Shown in pieces: positions 1 through 37,082 of a DNA stretch of 37,082 nt. Numbering within the stretch: the stretch's first letter is position 1; every line of letters begins with the position of its first letter. The translations under genes and the position numbers were made by a program. Under the pieces are notes generated by a model that was given only the letters and a program-made list of their open reading frames with translations, was not told the DNA's origin and searched no databases. The DNA comes from a virus. The stretch lies in IMG/VR virus record IMGVR_UViG_3300034107_000030, positions 1 through 37,082 of that record. One strand, given 5' to 3'.

Positions 1-157
1 GAACAGTAGAAACTGCGCTGTAACCAGAAGTGTTTGTATTTTGCTGAAATGTTGCTACTTGTGTTCCCGCACCAACCACGGACATTTTATCGCCAGCACG
101 TGTCTGGCTCGTAGTCCCCACCAGCAAATTACCGCTAGAGTCTATTCTGGCTCGTTC
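1..157. repeat. Terminal direct repeat, left copy (matches 36912-37068)
   Basis: Bases 1-157 match 36912-37068 with a single difference (A at 128, G at 37039). The match ends at 157/37068, beyond which the sequences diverge. Both copies encode the same fibre segment in the same frame. Because it is inexact and inside a gene, this looks like an assembly join across a variable or repeated fibre module rather than a packaged terminal repeat. Confidence 0.9.
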
Positions 158-2490: not shown

Positions 2491-4649
2491 TGTGGCATCC
2501 CCATTGGTTGTTCTGGAGGTATTTCTTCAGCCTCACGAACCGACGGCATCATCATAGTCTGTGATTCCATGGCCGCAGCAACAACACCCATGGCAATGTC
2601 TTGGATCTGTTCTTCAGTCATGCCGGCCTGCACCGCGCTGATTCGCTTGGTTTCGGCGTCGTATGCCTTGATTTCAGCCTCAAAGTCCTTGCGTTGCAAG
2701 TCCTGCATTTCAATCGACTTGCCGACGTTCTGGATCATCTGGTGCATCTGCTCCATCTCTTGACCCATCGCTTGAATCTGTTGCTGCGCCGCTTGCAATG
2801 CTGGGCTTTCGTCACTGTCTTCCAAGAACTTAGGATCAATCGTCTTGGCAAAGCGCTTGCTCATCTCTTGTGCGCCAGGCCAGTCCATGTTCTTAACGAA
2901 CAAGTCGCCAGCCACAGCCCACAGTTGTGGGTTGCCTTGCAGAAGTTGAGCCATGGCTTCCAGTGCTTCTTGACGCTTGGTTGCGTAGCCGGGGCCAGTG
3001 GTGGCCACCACGTCGTACTTGCCAACGCCCGGATTGTAGATTTTCTCTATAACCACCCCGTTTTCATCAACAATTTTCTTGACTGGTTCTTCTTGCTCAG
3101 GGTTGATCTTGACCATCTTCGTCTCGCCATCTTCACCAATAATGCGGGCAATGCGTTGAGTGTCGTAAATCTTAGGAATCAAATCAACTAGCTGGCGCGC
3201 AACGTGGCGAACTGCTCTAGTCAGGTTGTCACCGTAATGGTACGTGCCTACATCACCTTCACGCTGGCGTGCAAGGATGGCTTTGCCGCTACGCTCATTA
3301 CCGCCCAGACCCAAACTGGCGTCATATTGACCCGTTGTGGCCTTAATATCCTCAGATGCGCCTGCTTTGGCCTGTAATAGACCGCTGGAGGCCATTGGCG
3401 GCTGTGCCCGCTGGGGTAGTGGCAAGACCGCACCTTGGCCGTCTGTAACGTCTGGATTGACCTCAAGGTATGGCCAGTTGTTTGTGTTAGCCGTTTTCCA
3501 CTTGTCTTCGTAGCCCTCAAACTGGCCGCCGTAGCCAATAAACGGTGCTTTAGGCGCCAAAGCAAGCATTTCAGCCTCTTGTGACACCCAATAGTTGTAC
3601 ATTCTTTGCGCATCTTTGGCGTTACGCACCAAACCGCTGATGTAAATACGGCCATCAACTTCAAATTCGTTGCCAATGACGCGAATGACGGGAATCCACT
3701 TGCCCGCCCAGTCGTTTTGTTCCAAAATCTCATACCCGTTGATTTTGCAATACTTAACCTTGGGGTTAATTGATTCGCGTGTGCGCTTAGGTTTGCCGTA
3801 AACCGCTTTAAAGTTTCTATCTTCAGCCGTACCCTCAAAAGCAGTCTGCCCGCCGGGGTACATGTTCAGTTTGGCTTTTTCGTAGTCAATGTAGTAGTAA
3901 CTGGCGATGCGTACAGTATCCTCATTGAGCCAGTTGCTGATCGACTGATCACCTACACCAAGCGACTGGAGCGTCGAGATAGGCGCAGCGTCTGGGTACT
4001 GGCGCTCGTACTCTGCTTTGGTCAAATCTTCAGTGATAAAGCAATATTTAGCATCCGCACCCGTTGGGTCTTGGATCAAAGGATCCATGTAGACCGAGAA
4101 ACTGTTGCGAACACGGCCAATCTTAATGTCTTGATCGAACGTGTTGGGGTCGCAATACTCAGTCATTAGCGTGATGTAACCTTCGCCGTAGGCGACTTGG
4201 TTTTCACACGCTGTGTCGTAAGCTACGTCTGCGTCTGACATGTATTCGATGTGGCGAATCATGCCGTTAAAAATCTCAGCCACCTGCACGTCCGCGTTGT
4301 CGTCTACTGGGATGACCTTGGCGCCGGGGCGGTTCTGACGCATGTCATTCGTTACTTGACGAACGTGTTGGGGCAGTTTGTTAATCGTTAGTGTCGGGCG
4401 CGCGTTGATCGTTTGACCCTGCACTGCACCACGGGTAGCCAATACGTCAGCAGGCCACTGCCAGTGGTTGTCAGGCGAGCCAGCGTAAAAGCGCAGATCG
4501 TCAATTTCGTCTTCTCGTGATTCTGCTAGGGCACTCACAGCCATGTCCAAACGTGCCCGTGCGACGGTCAATATGTCAAAGTCACTTTTTGGTGGTTTGC
4601 CGCCAGCCGCTACGTTAGCGGCGGCGACCATGCCTGTTGGATCTGCCAT
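2487..4649 (-). CDS. Portal protein (P22 gp1 family)
   Basis: 720 aa, close to the roughly 725 aa of P22 portal. The portal is the dodecameric ring at the unique capsid vertex through which DNA is pumped and later leaves; it nucleates procapsid assembly with scaffold and docks the terminase. Family features seen are an acidic helical N-terminus (ESREDEIDDLRFYAGSPDNHW), the conserved segment LTINKLPQHVRQVTNDMRQNRP near residues 87-108, the YGEGYI region, and a long Gln/Met/Glu-rich helical C-terminus (about 610-690) like the P22 barrel. It lies 1 bp below the 46-aa gene and overlaps the next gene by 4 bp. Confident assignment. Confidence 0.95.
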   Translation of the reverse strand: MADPTGMVAAANVAAGGKPPKSDFDILTVARARLDMAVSALAESREDEIDDLRFYAGSPDNHWQWPADVLATRGAVQGQTINARPTLTINKLPQHVRQVTNDMRQNRPGAKVIPVDDNADVQVAEIFNGMIRHIEYMSDADVAYDTACENQVAYGEGYITLMTEYCDPNTFDQDIKIGRVRNSFSVYMDPLIQDPTGADAKYCFITEDLTKAEYERQYPDAAPISTLQSLGVGDQSISNWLNEDTVRIASYYYIDYEKAKLNMYPGGQTAFEGTAEDRNFKAVYGKPKRTRESINPKVKYCKINGYEILEQNDWAGKWIPVIRVIGNEFEVDGRIYISGLVRNAKDAQRMYNYWVSQEAEMLALAPKAPFIGYGGQFEGYEDKWKTANTNNWPYLEVNPDVTDGQGAVLPLPQRAQPPMASSGLLQAKAGASEDIKATTGQYDASLGLGGNERSGKAILARQREGDVGTYHYGDNLTRAVRHVARQLVDLIPKIYDTQRIARIIGEDGETKMVKINPEQEEPVKKIVDENGVVIEKIYNPGVGKYDVVATTGPGYATKRQEALEAMAQLLQGNPQLWAVAGDLFVKNMDWPGAQEMSKRFAKTIDPKFLEDSDESPALQAAQQQIQAMGQEMEQMHQMIQNVGKSIEMQDLQRKDFEAEIKAYDAETKRISAVQAGMTEEQIQDIAMGVVAAAMESQTMMMPSVREAEEIPPEQPMGMPQ

Positions 4650-5193: not shown

Positions 5194-6716
5194 GAACCCA
5201 TCCAAGAAGTTGCAACCACGCTTCGATCTGAATACATGCGGCGCTGCGTGGGTTCACGCGCCTCACGGTGAGCCACGGGGTAGGCAAACGTGACGCAAAT
5301 CGCATCTGCTGCGTCAGGCGAGGCCAGCCCCCGTGCTTTCATGTCCTTTTTCGACTCTAAGAAGATTGTACCCTTAGAGTCGGGCTTCATCATAGGCGAA
5401 ATTAGATCAGTTTTGAGAAATCTGTCAAGCGGAATCGACGCCCCTTTTAACCAATCTTTCATCGCACCCCACATTTCGGCTCTTTTATTACCATACATGA
5501 TGGGATTCTTAGACTTGCTGCCAAAATTGATGCCCTTGACCTTGTAGCGCTGCTCTTTTAAACGGTCGACAATGCCGGCTCCTAAGCCACCTTCGTCGAT
5601 CACGACCAACGTTGGCTTGTATTCTTCTATCACGTCAATTACATGCCCGACCACCGTCATGGTGTCGTCGCCTCTATGGCGCCGTATGCTAACAATATCT
5701 CGCCCTTGGCGCACGGCGATCACCGTCGCGTCAGCACCAAAGCGCGCTGGGTCGACACCGATCACTATTGGCGCGGATAGGTCTTTATACGCCGGCCTTT
5801 TCATCGCGTCATCTACTAATAACGCCGATATGAACTGATCGTCACCTTCCGAGGGGAACTGACCGTAGACCTCGACGTGAGCCTGCGCTGAGTCGGGGCC
5901 GTACTCGTCGATGATCTGTTGGTACACCTGCTTGTCCGTGCCCTCGACCGTGCGGGCGTCCACCACCTTGGTTGACCAGAACTCTCTTTTTGAATTAAAC
6001 GCTTCGTAGAAGTACCCCGTGTTGCGCCGTGGGTTGCTGAACGCCATCCAGAACCTGTTGGGCGTGTTCTCTGTAAAGAAGCCAGACGTGACCGCCCAGA
6101 TGCTGTCGTCGATACCTGACGCTTCGTCAAACACAACCAGCACACCGTCGAAGTTGTGCACACCCGCGTACGCGTCTGGGTTTTCTGCTGACCACAGTCG
6201 ACCCTCAACGCCCCAGTAGCGTGTGCCCTTCTTGAGATCACGCTCGACCAATTCCGTGAGCCACTTGGCCGGCATCAGCCTTGTCGCCGATACCTCAAAC
6301 CAGTGGCTGTTAAGCGCCATCGCTAACCACTTGGTTATCTCGGCCCAAGTGACACTGCGCAGTTGTGATTCTGAGTTGGCTGAAATAATGGTCGTGGAGC
6401 CAATCCGCGTGGTCAGCATCCAGATGGTGATCCATGAGACTAAGGCAGACTTACCAATACCACGGCCAGATGAGACGGCGCTTCTCAAGGTGTCGTAATC
6501 CAGTTTGCCGTTGTTTTGTTTGATGTGGTCGGTGATCTGTTGTAAGACTTCACGCTGCCACTTGCGTGGGCCAGTGAAGTGTTCCAACGGCGTGCCTGAT
6601 TGACCCCAAGGAAACGCAAACATGACGAACGCCAGTGGGTTGTCCTTGATGGCTGGCGCCCACAGGCGCGCCATGAGTTCCTGTTCGTCTTCAGCGCTGT
6701 ATATGGTCGATTGCAT
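5190..6716 (-). CDS. terL: Terminase large subunit (packaging ATPase and nuclease)
   Basis: 508 aa, normal for the family. N-terminal ATPase: Walker A SSGRGIGKS at 82-90 (Lys89) and Walker B VLVVFDEAS at 192-200 (Asp197, Glu198), followed by SGFF and a coupling-type region AFSNPRR at 225-231. C-terminal RNase H-like nuclease: Asp322 in VIGVDPARFGADAT, Asp374 in LVVIDEGGLG, and Asp468/Asp471 in SPDAADAI. The enzyme cuts concatemeric DNA and drives it into the procapsid through the portal. Its start overlaps the small subunit gene by 26 bp. All catalytic residues look intact. Confidence 0.96.
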   Translation of the reverse strand: MQSTIYSAEDEQELMARLWAPAIKDNPLAFVMFAFPWGQSGTPLEHFTGPRKWQREVLQQITDHIKQNNGKLDYDTLRSAVSSGRGIGKSALVSWITIWMLTTRIGSTTIISANSESQLRSVTWAEITKWLAMALNSHWFEVSATRLMPAKWLTELVERDLKKGTRYWGVEGRLWSAENPDAYAGVHNFDGVLVVFDEASGIDDSIWAVTSGFFTENTPNRFWMAFSNPRRNTGYFYEAFNSKREFWSTKVVDARTVEGTDKQVYQQIIDEYGPDSAQAHVEVYGQFPSEGDDQFISALLVDDAMKRPAYKDLSAPIVIGVDPARFGADATVIAVRQGRDIVSIRRHRGDDTMTVVGHVIDVIEEYKPTLVVIDEGGLGAGIVDRLKEQRYKVKGINFGSKSKNPIMYGNKRAEMWGAMKDWLKGASIPLDRFLKTDLISPMMKPDSKGTIFLESKKDMKARGLASPDAADAICVTFAYPVAHREAREPTQRRMYSDRSVVATSWMGS

Positions 6717-7119
6717 CTGTTTCCTTAGCCTGTACGTCGATCACATCTAGCCTCTTAGCCGCCTCGGCCAGCGCGCCTGTGATGGATATGCGCTGATCCA
6801 CCTCGACAGATATGGCCTGCTTGGCTACCCAGCCGTGCTGATGCTTTAGGATTTCTAGCGCCATCTTAGCGTCGCCCTGGAGGGCTGCGCCTCGCACGAC
6901 GTTGGCCATTTCAATTTCGCCGTCGGCTTTGCCTTTTTGCGCGGCCATCTCGACGACTGGGTCAAGTTGCGTAAGTTGTCGGTATTCGGTGGGCAGCATG
7001 CCGGCGGCCAAGGCTAGCGTGTCGCCTTTGAGGCCAAGTTTGGCGGCGTCGTACACCGCTTTTAAGCGCGACTCTGTTGCCTGCACATTGCGCGGTGTGA
7101 ATGGGATTGAATAGAACAT
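6691..7119 (-). CDS. terS: Terminase small subunit (packaging recognition)
   Basis: 142 aa, immediately upstream of and overlapping terL. The first half (AVYDAAKLGLKGDTLALAAGMLPTEYRQL) has the size and spacing of the helix-turn-helix that terminase small subunits use to bind the packaging site. The middle (EIEMANVVRGAALQGDAKMALEILKHQHGW) is the helical oligomerisation part found in other phage TerS proteins. GGAGAG lies just upstream of ATG 7119. It is the first gene of the leftward operon, next to the repeat region 7265-7645, which could contain its binding site. Confidence 0.85.
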   Translation of the reverse strand: MFYSIPFTPRNVQATESRLKAVYDAAKLGLKGDTLALAAGMLPTEYRQLTQLDPVVEMAAQKGKADGEIEMANVVRGAALQGDAKMALEILKHQHGWVAKQAISVEVDQRISITGALAEAAKRLDVIDVQAKETDAIDHIQR

Positions 7120-7152
7120 CTGCTCTCCATGCTGGTTGCACGTAGCCTTTAG

Positions 7153-7161
7153 TTTATAACA
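7153..7161 (-). promoter_or_regulatory. Candidate leftward extended -10 promoter for terS operon
   Basis: On the minus strand the sequence reads TG-T-TATAAA (TG at 7161-7160, -10 at 7158-7153), an extended -10 element with five of six consensus bases. Predicted start is near 7147, giving a leader of about 28 nt with GGAG before ATG 7119. No good -35 is present, as is usual for extended -10 promoters. Confidence 0.4.
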
Positions 7162-7225
7162 AAAAATAAAAATTGTTCGTAACCCGTACGTTTTTGTCGG
7201 CCCTATGCTGCCGGCCCTACCCTAC

Positions 7226-7242
7226 CCCTACTGCCAGTAGGG
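7226..7242. other. Short perfect inverted repeat (7-bp arms, GCC loop)
   Basis: CCCTACT at 7226-7232 and AGTAGGG at 7236-7242 are perfect reverse complements around GCC, followed on the plus strand by TCTTTT. It could be a weak rightward terminator or a protein-binding site between the leftward promoter and the repeat array. Confidence 0.4.
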
Positions 7243-7339
7243 TCTTTTCCATGGTGCGGCCGGCTTTGGGTCATTTGGGTCATTTGGGTCATTTGGGTCA
7301 CGGTTTTAAATTGCAAGCTGGCGCCAGCATGCGCATGTC

Positions 7340-7387
7340 ATTGGGTCATTTGGGTCATTTGTTTTTTGTTGACCCAAATGACCCAAA
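7340..7387. repeat. Large inverted repeat made of two opposing iteron pairs
   Basis: The forward pair (7341-7357) and the reverse pair (7370-7386) form a perfect 17-bp stem around a 12-base T-rich loop (7358-7369). It is far longer than a transcription terminator and lies in the middle of the array. It could extrude as a cruciform or a single-strand hairpin, for example as a single-strand initiation or termination site. Confidence 0.8.
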
Positions 7388-7496
7388 AGGCGCAGATCTG
7401 GCGCCCAGGGAATTCCCCGGCTTTGGGTCATTTGGGTCATTTTGTCACGCTCCAAAAATCGGCGCGGGTAGAGTTGTCTACATGGCGTTACACTGT

Positions 7497-7540
7497 CTTT
7501 ATATACAGTACTATCTATAACTTTACTATTTATAAACAAT
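7497..7540. other. AT-rich patch inside the repeat array (possible unwinding element)
   Basis: Roughly 44 bases dominated by A and T (TTTATATAC, CTATCTATAAC, TTTACTATTTATAAAC), bounded on the left by the forward pair at 7422-7439 and on the right by the reverse pair at 7540-7557. The surrounding DNA is GC rich. An AT-rich segment next to repeats is typical of a duplex-unwinding element, but it also contains weak -10-like sequences. Confidence 0.5.
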
Positions 7541-7645
7541 GACCCAAATGACCCAAAGCATATTGCAAGTGAGTATCTGCGCTGGCTGGCGCTTAGGTCA
7601 TCGCAGCGCAAATGCATAACCTAAGCGCGACCCAAATGACCCAAA

Positions 7646-7679: not shown

Positions 7680-7707
7680 TTGACAGTGTAAATAATTCCC
7701 TTACAAT
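7680..7707 (+). promoter_or_regulatory. Sigma-70-type promoter of the rightward small-gene operon
   Basis: TTGACA (7680-7685, perfect -35), a 16-bp spacer and TACAAT (7702-7707, five of six -10 bases). Predicted start is about 7714, giving a leader of about 43 nt before ATG 7757. Its strength and lack of phage-specific elements suggest immediate recognition by host RNA polymerase, so the downstream cluster is probably early. Confidence 0.75.
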
Positions 7708-7756: not shown

Positions 7757-7930
7757 ATGATCTACTCACACATTTTCAAAGCGCGCAAAGAGTCCGGCTA
7801 TAAGTTTATCTGCTACATAACCGCGACGCCAGCGCTGCAAGGCGCGCCGATAGAGTCGGCATATTTCGACAGTAAGGTAGCAGCCAAAAAATGGGCCGCT
7901 GCTAAAAACACGAAGGCATGGAACTATTAA
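7757..7930 (+). CDS. Small early protein, 57 aa, function unknown
   Basis: 57 codons plus stop, starting MIYSHIFKARKESGYKF and ending ...WAAAKNTKAWNY. Basic and soluble, with aromatic residues at both ends; it resembles a small beta-beta-alpha unit. An AAGG ribosome binding site lies 6 bases before ATG 7757. First gene after the strong promoter, so likely made first after infection. Such genes often encode host-takeover factors, which is a positional inference only. Confidence 0.65.
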   Translation: MIYSHIFKARKESGYKFICYITATPALQGAPIESAYFDSKVAAKKWAAAKNTKAWNY

Positions 7931-8076: not shown

Positions 8077-8736
8077 ATGCAAGTACATTTAACACTTAAA
8101 AGCGCGAACGTCAAAACCGGCCCGATACCGGTTTCAACTACTGAGCGCGACTCGTGCCCGACCGATTGCAAAATGAAGGCCGAATGCTACGCGGCCAGCG
8201 GGCCACTGGCGCTACACTGGGCCGCCGTATCCATGAAAACGCGCGGCACGTCCTGGGGTGAATTCTGCGAGACAATCGCGCGCTTACCCGACAATCAAAT
8301 TTGGCGCCACAATCAAGCCGGCGATCTACCCCAGCAAAACGGCACAATTGACGCCGCGAAGCTGGGTGAATTGGTGGCCGCGAACACCGGTAAACGCGGG
8401 TTTACTTATTCGCATCATCGCGACGCCGCCAGCATTGCATGGATCCGGCATGCCAATAATTGGGGTTTTACTGTCAACTTATCGGCCAATGATTTAAATG
8501 ACGCCGATTACTTGGCCGATCAAAACGCCGGCCCGGTCGTCGTCGTTTTACCCAGTACGCAAAACGAAAACCTAAAAACGCCAGCCGGCCGGCCGGTCGT
8601 CGTTTGCCCGGCCACCCAGCGCGACGACGTCAGCTGCGCGACGTGCCAATTATGTCAACGTCAACGGTCCACAATTGTAGGTTTCCCGGCACATGGTTCG
8701 CGCCATCGCACAATCAACTTAAGGTTAGTAGCATGA
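8077..8736 (+). CDS. Cys-rich conserved phage protein (DUF7227 / gp88-like), 219 aa
   Basis: Motifs in order: TGPIPVSTT at 14-22; CPTDCKMKAECYA with Cys27, Cys31 and Cys37; WRHNQAGDLP at 76-85; KRGFTYSHH at 106-114; GFTVNLSAND at 130-139; VVVCPAT with Cys177; and CATCQLC with Cys187, Cys190 and Cys193. I recall this pattern as a phage family called DUF7227 or gene product 88. The CxxxC...C and CxxCxxC groups look like metal or Fe-S ligands, and the alternating strand/helix layout could be a TIM-barrel-like enzyme. The biochemical role is unknown. It is the largest gene of the early cluster, overlapped 4 bp by the next gene. Confidence 0.75.
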   Translation: MQVHLTLKSANVKTGPIPVSTTERDSCPTDCKMKAECYAASGPLALHWAAVSMKTRGTSWGEFCETIARLPDNQIWRHNQAGDLPQQNGTIDAAKLGELVAANTGKRGFTYSHHRDAASIAWIRHANNWGFTVNLSANDLNDADYLADQNAGPVVVVLPSTQNENLKTPAGRPVVVCPATQRDDVSCATCQLCQRQRSTIVGFPAHGSRHRTINLRLVA

Positions 8737-10193: not shown

Positions 10194-12482
10194 CTATTTC
10201 ACCAAGCGCACGGCCATGGGCGCCGGTATATCTTCAACCATGCGGCGCAGTTCTGATTTAGGCCGGCTGGCCATCTCGGGCGCACAAAACATGTGTTTTT
10301 TGCTTTGAAAGTCACCGGACGCGACGCGGCCAAGATCGACCCACCCAGCCTCTTTAAGCGCATGCAGTAGCGCCGGCTGGGGGACCTTCACACCGGCCGG
10401 AGCGGCGCCAGCCACGCGGTCACACAATGCATGGAAGGGAGACGCCACCACACCCTTAGAAAACTCACCCAAGCGCCCGCGCATCAATTCGACAAGGTAC
10501 GATTCGGCCATGCTCATGCCATGCTCGACCAAGTTCAATTTGAATTCTGTCATCATAGGCGCAGCGCCAGGATTAAACGCCGACACGTCGCGCGCTTGCA
10601 GCCAGGCGCCCACGGCCGCAAACCCGCCGGCCTTGTACCATGCCCACATGCGCGCGGCAGCGTCAGTACTCATGCGCGGCGCATGCGACCAAATGCACAT
10701 CCAGCGGCGATCTTGAGAATCTAGGCTAATCGGCACGGGGTCATTGGAAAACGCCAGCACGAACACGCGGTTCGCCATTTGGTAGGGGTGCAGGCCCTTG
10801 CGGTTGACTGTCAGCATTTCAGGGGGCGCGGCAATAATGGGTTTCAACTTATTGGCCAGCGCGCGCCTCTCTTTGGCGTCAGGTTCTTTTAGCTCATTCA
10901 ATATTAAAATTTCAGATTCCAGCGCATAACCAAATTGGCTGCTCATGGTGTCATTGTCCAGCAGGCCACGGTTTTTAAGGTGGGGGCCACACACGGCCCA
11001 AATGAACGGCGCCCACATGGTATCTTTTCCGGACCCTTGGTCGCCGCCATGCAACACGGCGTGATTGATCTTGATGCCGGGGAATTGGATTTTGAAGGCC
11101 ATCACATTCAAAATGTGATCTAGTTCGCGCTGATCGGGCACAAGGGTTTTGCAGTGATCCATCCACAAACCAATGTCACCGGCGGCCACTGGGGGCCGCG
11201 CGTCGCGCCAGCGGTTACCGTACAGATCGCCATCACGGGCCACAATGACCGATTCGCCGGCGGCGTAAGTGATCCCCACAAGCGCTTTGGCGCCGCATTC
11301 CTGTCTGTTTTCATCAAAGCAAATTGATGCCTCGACTTTGGGGCGCTTACCATGGATCGAATTGCAGGGGATATGACGAAACAATGCGTTAAAGGTGCTG
11401 CGGGAAATTTCCCTGCGGTCTTGCATATCAAAATAGGACTCGTCGTCTTGAATGTAGGCAAACCGGCCGTACCACTGCGCCTTCTCAATGCGCCCTAGTT
11501 CTTTGCGCTCGACCTCGGCAATGATGGCCGCCGCTGCGTCGGGGAACGCTTCGGTGGGCTTGATTTTAGACAAGGCTTGATCCATGGCCAAGGTCAGTAG
11601 CTCATCACGTAAGCCAGGGGCATGCTTGGGGCCGCCATTGTCAGCGACCCATTGCAAAAACATGTTAGACCCAAATTCAACGCAATGGCTGTGCAGGCAG
11701 CAGTAGGCGCGGTTGGCGGGCATGTAACGGCCTTCTGGGTTGCCGTCTGTATGCTCGGCTGAGTTGGGGCACATCACGCCGGCCCAACCTTCTTGATTGG
11801 GCTTAGACAGTAGCAGGCCCTGGCCACTAAGCCACGCCATCACGTCATCGGCGCCGTCATCTGACAAGCGGATCGGCTTGAACCCCACAGAGTCAGCAGG
11901 CGCAGGCACTACGCCAAGCGCGTCACAAATTTGGTCCAATGTAAAGTCACGCGCTGGGTGAAACTCCACCAGCTTGGCGGCAAAGTTATTGCGGTCGGGC
12001 TTCAAATTGATCGAACCAGGCAAACGGAAATTGCGCACGGCATTGATCGCACCCTTGTCGGTGTAGCCCGCGTCGGCTATGGCTTTAATCGCCGCGCTAA
12101 AGTCGCCCTTTGTGGGTTGTTCTGAGAAGGCATAACCCCACTGGAATGAACCCTCAGACGTTTCGATCTTCCACGTCGGCTCAAGTGGCGGAATGGCCGC
12201 CTTTGTGCCCACGTCGTCCAGTACCATCACTAACACATACTCGCAGTTAACCGCAGACGCGGAGACGTGGCCATCTTTAAAGCGGTCGATGATAAAACTG
12301 GCCGTGTTGCCATAAATCGCCCAATCGTCTTTGATGCGTGCGGTAGGCAACATAGCCGGCCATGTGCATTTGATCGCGCCATCTGCATGGAATTGCAGTT
12401 CTTTGCCAATGGGCTTCTGGCGCACGATTAACGCAGTCTCACCCTCGGGCGCCAAAGACATTAAAAATTCAAGAAAATTCAT
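10194..12482 (-). CDS. Primase-helicase (archaeo-eukaryotic-type primase plus SF3-like helicase)
   Basis: 762 aa from ATG 12482. This start has AGG at ideal spacing, whereas the in-frame ATG 12488 is too close to it. N-terminal half: RepB/AEP-type primase features, with Asp89-Asp90 in VLVMVLDDVG, FQWGYAF near 113-119 and LPGSINLKP near 154-162. A Cys/His cluster follows (Cys238, Cys261, Cys262, His264, His266, Cys267). C-terminal half: Walker A GGDQGSGKD near 479-487 (Lys486), acidic ILILNELKE near 525-533, sensor Asn580 in FVLAFSNDPVP, and Arg592-Arg593 in SQDRRW. This is the layout of the DUF5906/NrS-1 type phage replicative primase-helicases. It primes and unwinds DNA for the neighbouring polymerase. 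Convergent with the early operon. Confidence 0.88.
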   Translation of the reverse strand: MNFLEFLMSLAPEGETALIVRQKPIGKELQFHADGAIKCTWPAMLPTARIKDDWAIYGNTASFIIDRFKDGHVSASAVNCEYVLVMVLDDVGTKAAIPPLEPTWKIETSEGSFQWGYAFSEQPTKGDFSAAIKAIADAGYTDKGAINAVRNFRLPGSINLKPDRNNFAAKLVEFHPARDFTLDQICDALGVVPAPADSVGFKPIRLSDDGADDVMAWLSGQGLLLSKPNQEGWAGVMCPNSAEHTDGNPEGRYMPANRAYCCLHSHCVEFGSNMFLQWVADNGGPKHAPGLRDELLTLAMDQALSKIKPTEAFPDAAAAIIAEVERKELGRIEKAQWYGRFAYIQDDESYFDMQDRREISRSTFNALFRHIPCNSIHGKRPKVEASICFDENRQECGAKALVGITYAAGESVIVARDGDLYGNRWRDARPPVAAGDIGLWMDHCKTLVPDQRELDHILNVMAFKIQFPGIKINHAVLHGGDQGSGKDTMWAPFIWAVCGPHLKNRGLLDNDTMSSQFGYALESEILILNELKEPDAKERRALANKLKPIIAAPPEMLTVNRKGLHPYQMANRVFVLAFSNDPVPISLDSQDRRWMCIWSHAPRMSTDAAARMWAWYKAGGFAAVGAWLQARDVSAFNPGAAPMMTEFKLNLVEHGMSMAESYLVELMRGRLGEFSKGVVASPFHALCDRVAGAAPAGVKVPQPALLHALKEAGWVDLGRVASGDFQSKKHMFCAPEMASRPKSELRRMVEDIPAPMAVRLVK

Positions 12483-12502
12483 TGCCATACCTTTATAAAA
12501 AA

Positions 12503-36504: not shown

Positions 36505-37082
36505 TTAGGGGTGTGATGCTTTGTAGGCATCAAATTCTGCTTTCAGTTCTTGGATGGCTTTTAGCAACATAAATGGTAAAACGCTTTGTTTTACTTGTTT
36601 ATATATTTCGCCGCCTTCTTCAACTGGATTTATGTCATTTTGAACAAGATTTGGAAAAACTTGTTCCACTTCTTGTGCAATAAGACCCAACTCTTGGGGA
36701 GTACCTTCTGCATCATTTTTCCAGTTATATTTGACAACACGCAACTTACAAAGGTCATCAATATAGCCATTACGAGTGGTAACAATATTTTTCTTTAGCC
36801 GCTCATCTGACGAATAAGAAGTTGTGCCATTACCATATAGATACCAGTTGCCTACGCTACTGGTGTTACCCCAGAAATGATATGAACTTGTATTGTTACC
36901 ATTTGATTGAAGAACAGTAGAAACTGCGCTGTAACCAGAAGTGTTTGTATTTTGCTGAAATGTTGCTACTTGTGTTCCCGCACCAACCACGGACATTTTA
37001 TCGCCAGCACGTGTCTGGCTCGTAGTCCCCACCAGCAAGTTACCGCTAGAGTCTATTCTGGCTCGTTCTGGATAAGCGCCAG
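36505..37082 (-). CDS. Tail fibre C-terminus with S74 chaperone domain (runs off the window edge)
   Basis: Open to the right edge; contains ERARIDSSGNLLVGTTSQ and the S74 signature SSDERLKKNIVTT, then LCKLRVVKYNWKND, LGLIAQEVEQVFPNLV and YKQVKQSVLPFMLLKAIQELKAE. S74 domains are intramolecular chaperones that trimerise the fibre and then cut themselves off at the Ser-Asp site. The ATG at 37038 is only an internal methionine; the true start is almost certainly at 1843 through the terminal repeat. The 14 bases beyond the repeat (37069-37082) do not match the left copy. Confidence 0.88.
   Translation of the reverse strand, partial: GAYPERARIDSSGNLLVGTTSQTRAGDKMSVVGAGTQVATFQQNTNTSGYSAVSTVLQSNGNNTSSYHFWGNTSSVGNWYLYGNGTTSYSSDERLKKNIVTTRNGYIDDLCKLRVVKYNWKNDAEGTPQELGLIAQEVEQVFPNLVQNDINPVEEGGEIYKQVKQSVLPFMLLKAIQELKAEFDAYKASHP
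36912..37068. repeat. Terminal direct repeat, right copy (matches 1-157)
   Basis: Same 157 bp as the left end with one change (37039 G versus 128 A). Outside it, 37069-37082 encodes GAYP where the left copy encodes DLT before ERARID. Confidence 0.9.

Follow-up and report, generated by a model that had tools for sequence, protein, structure and literature searches.

The array of paired 9-bp repeats lying between the packaging and early genes of this freshwater phage is very probably its replication origin, with the phage-encoded primase-helicase as the corresponding initiator. This reading is based on the comparison of related loci, in which the spelling of the repeat and a few residues of the primase-helicase vary together, and on a structural model that places these residues on the wing of a predicted winged-helix domain. 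The window, i.e., the whole stretch of DNA that was analyzed, is 37,082 bp long and contains genes for a P22-like portal protein, TerL, a DUF5906 primase-helicase, PolA, an exonuclease, a helicase, and an endolysin. The coordinates of the relevant features are listed in Table 1.

Table 1. Features of the repeat array, its neighbors and its proposed reader (positions in the window)
Feature	Position	Strand	Basis
terS-like gene, divergent neighbor, unlikely reader	6691..7119	-	assigned from position and relatives; no own family match
Four tandem TTTGGGTCA copies (two pairs)	7265..7300	+	exact matches
Tandem pair, first copy ATTGGGTCA	7340..7357	+	includes one-mismatch copy
Tandem pair	7370..7387	-	exact matches
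Tandem pair, left border of AT-rich gap	7422..7439	+	
AT-rich central gap between facing pairs (64% A+T), candidate DNA unwinding element	7440..7539	.	
Tandem pair, right border of AT-rich gap	7540..7557	-	
Outermost tandem pair, one copy TTTGGGTCG	7628..7645	-	
Candidate sigma-70 promoter of early genes, TTGACA-16-TACAAT, just beyond array	7680..7707	+	consensus match, 11/12
Primase-helicase (764 aa), proposed reader/initiator	10194..12488	-	DUF5906, RepB'-like region, predicted C-terminal winged helix
Predicted C-terminal winged-helix domain, approximately residues 650-752	10233..10541	-	AlphaFold2 model
Wing hairpin, residues 719-741	10266..10334	-	AlphaFold2 model; class-separating residues

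The first-pass annotation had described 14 copies of a 9-mer, eight forward and six reverse and always in tandem pairs, around an AT-rich patch in a non-coding region separating the packaging and early genes, and all of these points were borne out. Across the 37,082 bp, TTTGGGTCA occurs in 12 exact copies, all of them within 7265-7645 and none elsewhere (0.43 copies are expected by chance, and none of 100 shuffled sequences reached 12), and two one-mismatch copies (7340, forward; 7628, reverse) complete the 14. Because every copy sits in a head-to-tail run with a 9-bp period, the units of the array are pairs, four forward and three reverse, in the order + + + - + - -, where the two at the left end are fused. 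The array is intergenic, with terS on one side and the divergent early genes, whose first called ORF is at 7757 on the plus strand, on the other, and the candidate early promoter begins 35 bp past the last pair. No inflection of the GC skew, which had been suggested as a check, was seen at 7265-7645. The minima of AT skew and purine skew both fall at 7531, and we give them little weight because the gene strand switches at the same place.

The expectation that related phages carry the motif at the same place was also confirmed. When IMG/VR was scanned with the 18-bp pair, at least 120 stretches matched, and among the matches listed, about 100 contigs have the array upstream of terS, together with TerL or TerS relatives. 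Many single-dimer matches of the first scan were discarded as chance matches inside coding sequences of unrelated phages. Neither megablast with the window nor a distant blastn search with the array matched any named phage or plasmid, and among the papers listed by a literature search for the 9-mer, all were unrelated. The anatomy of the array is kept in relatives, also in those with the 9-mer TTGTCCACA in place of TGACCCAAA: neighboring reverse/forward pairs are 29-30 bp apart (the distance between the pair at 7370 and the one preceding it in nearly all relatives possessing both), outer pairs are 87-89 bp apart (88 bp for the outermost pair of the window, and 87-89 bp in most relatives possessing both), and a central gap lies between facing pairs. 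Over 45 loci, this gap has a mean A+T content of 62%, compared with 44.5% in the other inter-pair gaps, as expected of an unwinding element. Multiple short repeats thus adjoin an AT-rich region, the arrangement of an iteron origin. The central spacings cluster near 100, 109, 118, 128, and 139 bp, i.e., in steps of about 10-11 bp, close to a full turn of the helix (p=0.003 in two of the three orientation classes); this phasing of the pairs is suggestive only, because the gain or loss of one 9-bp unit also moves the spacing by 9.

The same design is spelled in different ways. Loci whose TerS is about 93% identical to that of the window are of two kinds, those with TTTGGGTCA arrays and those with no such site, and the latter carry TTGTCCACA. 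Near-identical TerS proteins and the same layout also occur with TGACCCAAA, TAGCCAACA, TGACCCACA, and other 9-mers, while further lineages have TGACTCACA, TAGCCAACA, TGACCCACA, and more, giving at least 14 distinct spellings. Since the design stays the same while the 9-mer changes, these loci constitute a natural experiment in which one can ask which protein changes alongside. In one locus (L019/L160), a TGACCCAAA array upstream of terS is accompanied by TGGTCCACA/TTGTCCACA copies closer to terS, possibly the trace of a switch between spellings; its primase is of the window type.

Within one clade, no column separated the two motif classes in TerS (0/152), TerL (0/509), or PolA (0/645). In the primase-helicase, two clades show parallel changes at eight class-separating positions, of which seven (719, 722, 723, 725, 728, 733, and 741) fall within residues 719-741. 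Residue 725 agrees with base 8 of the motif in all 97 non-redundant loci: Arg accompanies C in 55 of 55, and Gly, Ala, Ser, or Thr accompanies A, T, or G in 42 of 42. It is the best predictor among the 764 positions of the protein and ranks top over all positions and bases, and the rule held in all 19 loci fetched afterwards, 16 of which belong to the Arg class. One contig, L013 (= L131), breaks it by combining TGACCCAAA repeats (a window-type array) with an Arg725 wing, and is regarded as a recombinant or an assembly chimera because its nearest relatives change type at approximately 3.2 kb. At base 4, all 25 loci with T have Asp728, and C is found in four of the 29 loci with Asp728. On a tree built from primase residues 1-600, 11 changes of the trait are counted, and the rule holds in all eight phylogenetically independent pairs that lie on supported branches (p=0.0078). 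Moreover, the primase is the only tested early-side protein that accompanies every array of the window's spelling. Several candidate readers had been named at the outset, and this covariation singles out the primase-helicase among them.

The N-terminal part of this protein appears to be a primase of the AEP type: 15 of 29 relatives, though not the window member itself, match Pfam RepB_primase (best E 1.1e-6), and no TOPRIM (DnaG-like) match was found. An SF3-type helicase follows (DUF5906, residues 479-595, E 1.4e-12), with a Walker A motif (GGDQGSGKDT at residue 481) and DRRW at 593. The sole confident PDB relative by sequence is the helicase region of the NrS-1 primase (6k9c/6k9e; E 2.8e-9, residues 462-661), and a PDB search with the C-terminal profile gave nothing meaningful. 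Because the full-length AlphaFold2 model is of low confidence (pLDDT 61), only the model of the C-terminal 135 residues was used. The input for the structure predictions excluded one row from a named phage record. The domain is predicted to be a winged helix (pLDDT mostly 84-94 over the core), in which residues 719-741 form a two-stranded wing and residue 725 (model residue 96) lies at its tip. Foldseek returned no significant match (E 0.1 or worse), with winged helices abundant among the matches listed, and a second structure comparison gave weak similarities to winged-helix domains, with Z up to 6.3. Among the structure matches listed, which are weak, the solved P4 origin-binding domain does not appear, and this says nothing for or against a relationship.

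Several other readings of the array have to be weighed, one of which is that it serves as a packaging site bound by the product of the adjacent terS. Sites of the pac and cos kinds often lie within or near terS, and TerS proteins bind DNA as rings; in agreement with this, terS and the array are direct neighbors in almost all loci, and binding by a ring would fit phased sites. However, TerS proteins of 93% identity are found with both TTTGGGTCA and TTGTCCACA arrays, and the best TerS column predicts base 8 in 80% of cases against a baseline of 58%, while the primase reaches 100%. The array is also not a fixed genome end, because the contigs of 36-40 kb relatives end at varied distances from it and the ends of the window look like an overlap of a circular map. 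Packaging through TerS is therefore highly improbable, and of the three functions originally put forward (iteron origin, TerS packaging site, or multi-site operator), it is the origin that the covariation strongly favors and the packaging site that finds no counterpart in TerS. Linkage is a genuine concern, because the C-terminus is the end of the primase nearest the array, about 2.6 kb away, and the two can be exchanged together. If the whole block from the array to this C-terminus were swapped as one, the true reader might be another of its products, and the linked small genes g9872 and g9553 do separate the motif classes where they are present. Against such hitchhiking, the match of the primase residue is retained in loci lacking g9872 or g9553, the pairing persists in distantly related clades, whose primase is about 62% identical and which have none of the small genes tested, the eight independent pairs agree, and the signal falls on one wing residue and is not spread along the C-terminus. 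We consider this explanation very unlikely, and the primase-helicase, rated well above its linked neighbors although short of proven, is most likely the reader.

The same small genes bear on the proposal that the array is a multi-site operator, where an early-gene repressor or activator would bind the pairs and control the divergent early and packaging promoters. The near-consensus promoter so close to the last pair, as well as the class separation by g9872 and g9553, would suit such a role, but each of the six early families tested is missing from some of the 33 loci that carry the window's 9-mer (g9553 occurs in 26, g9872 in 20, and DUF7227 in 17), none of them has a recognized DNA-binding domain, and seven pairs around an AT-rich gap are more than operators usually have. 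As an alternative to the origin, the operator is unlikely; the two roles are nevertheless compatible, and the origin may additionally regulate the adjacent early promoter. A host protein, either DnaA acting on 9-mers that are divergent DnaA boxes or another factor, is extremely improbable as the reader. The 9-mers share the letter spacing of the DnaA box (T...C.A.A) and perfect boxes occur in TTGTCCACA-type arrays, yet the window's array contains no consensus box (TTWTNCACA), the genome has two in total, fewer than by chance, and a host reader would leave the perfect match to a residue of a phage protein unexplained.

With regard to the phage itself, the nearest named records by TerL are MW202483 (78.5% identical) and DSL-LC05 (69.6%), which are metagenome-assembled podovirus-like genomes. 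An exact 127-bp direct repeat is present near the ends of the window (1-127 = 36912-37038) and is followed by 44 diverged bases; it looks like an assembly overlap of a circular map with a strain variant. In MW202483, a stand-alone DnaA domain-IV protein (PF08299, E 1.1e-17) is encoded at 7083-7379 on the minus strand, and GTTTACRTAAAC palindromes replace the 9-mer pairs upstream of terS (10200-10600). A reader of this kind was considered for the window and rejected, the domain being absent from the early proteins tested. DSL-LC05 has TGACCCACTGGGTCA-like palindromes (3590-4130) upstream of a different terS, and these have the TGACCCA core in common despite different replication genes. Two contigs (L141, positions 3690-3760, and L142) have TTGTCCACA-type arrays with perfect DnaA boxes (TTATCCACA and TTATGCACA), unlike the window. 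The DUF7227/phrog_2554 protein encoded at 8077-8736 of the window also occurs in Pseudomonas PAK_P1-like phages, cyanophages, and roseophages. Short contigs of the phage group (L394-L399) are found in freshwater MAGs assigned to Rhodoferax, betaproteobacteria, an actinobacterium, and Mucilaginibacter, with uncertain host assignment.

If the array is the origin and the primase-helicase its initiator, several copies of the protein would bind the pairs through their wings, and helicase rings would load at the AT-rich gap between the two facing pairs. The protein would then melt this gap, prime the opened duplex, and hand over to the phage PolA for theta-type replication. Since the 9-mer and the wing diverge together, different lineages would possess private origin spellings. 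We give roughly even chances to the broader proposal that this large, uncultured freshwater podovirus-like group has repeatedly re-spelled its iterons (at least 14 spellings of the 9-mer are seen) along with a few wing residues of the initiator. This would amount to a natural recognition code, in which residue 725 would correspond to base 8 and residues 728 and 723 to bases 2-4, and to private origins that could restrict cross-replication among co-infecting relatives. An origin and an initiator would also be assigned to hundreds of phage contigs that are annotated with neither. About a hundred natural origin-initiator pairs, with one wing residue predicting one base, would make it possible to test how the specificity of a winged-helix initiator changes and whether the spelling of the origin keeps replicons apart.

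Phage P4, with its ori and alpha protein, is among the closest known systems. As described in PMC4234260, where Ziegelin and Lanka 1995 and Yeo et al. 2002 are cited, P4 alpha joins a primase and an SF3-type helicase to a C-terminal winged-helix domain that binds the origin by reading short repeats, and the window protein is alike in uniting a primase, an SF3-type helicase, and a predicted C-terminal winged helix in one phage protein. The primase of P4 alpha is nevertheless of the bacterial TOPRIM type, whereas the N-terminus here is RepB'-like (AEP) in relatives; P4 is a satellite relying on the host polymerase, whereas the present phage has its own PolA; and the iteron sequences differ. P4 also has a second repeat cluster, crr, whereas all exact copies here are in one cluster. 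We do not file the window protein as P4 alpha, given its non-TOPRIM primase and the single repeat cluster. In NrS-1, the helicase region of the primase-polymerase is alike, and the match excludes the C-terminal winged helix. The three jobs of helicase, RepB'-type primase, and iteron binding are also brought together at the iteron origin of RSF1010 by RepA, RepB', and RepC (PMC4234260), but as three polypeptides where there is apparently one here, and with unrelated iterons; pRN1 is a further precedent beside P4 alpha (PMC4234260). In SaPI Rep/ori and SCCmec Cch2, the C-terminal domain of the initiator helicase recognizes an iteron origin downstream of its own gene (PMC7581432), which resembles the iteron reader proposed here. 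The present origin would instead lie about 2.6 kb beyond the helicase gene and next to terS, its 9-mer pairs run in both orientations, and the elements are genomes of tailed phages. By analogy, the array most likely works like an origin of the P4/SaPI kind, and the novel aspects of the present case are how large the group is, the pairing of the sites, and the putative natural recognition code.
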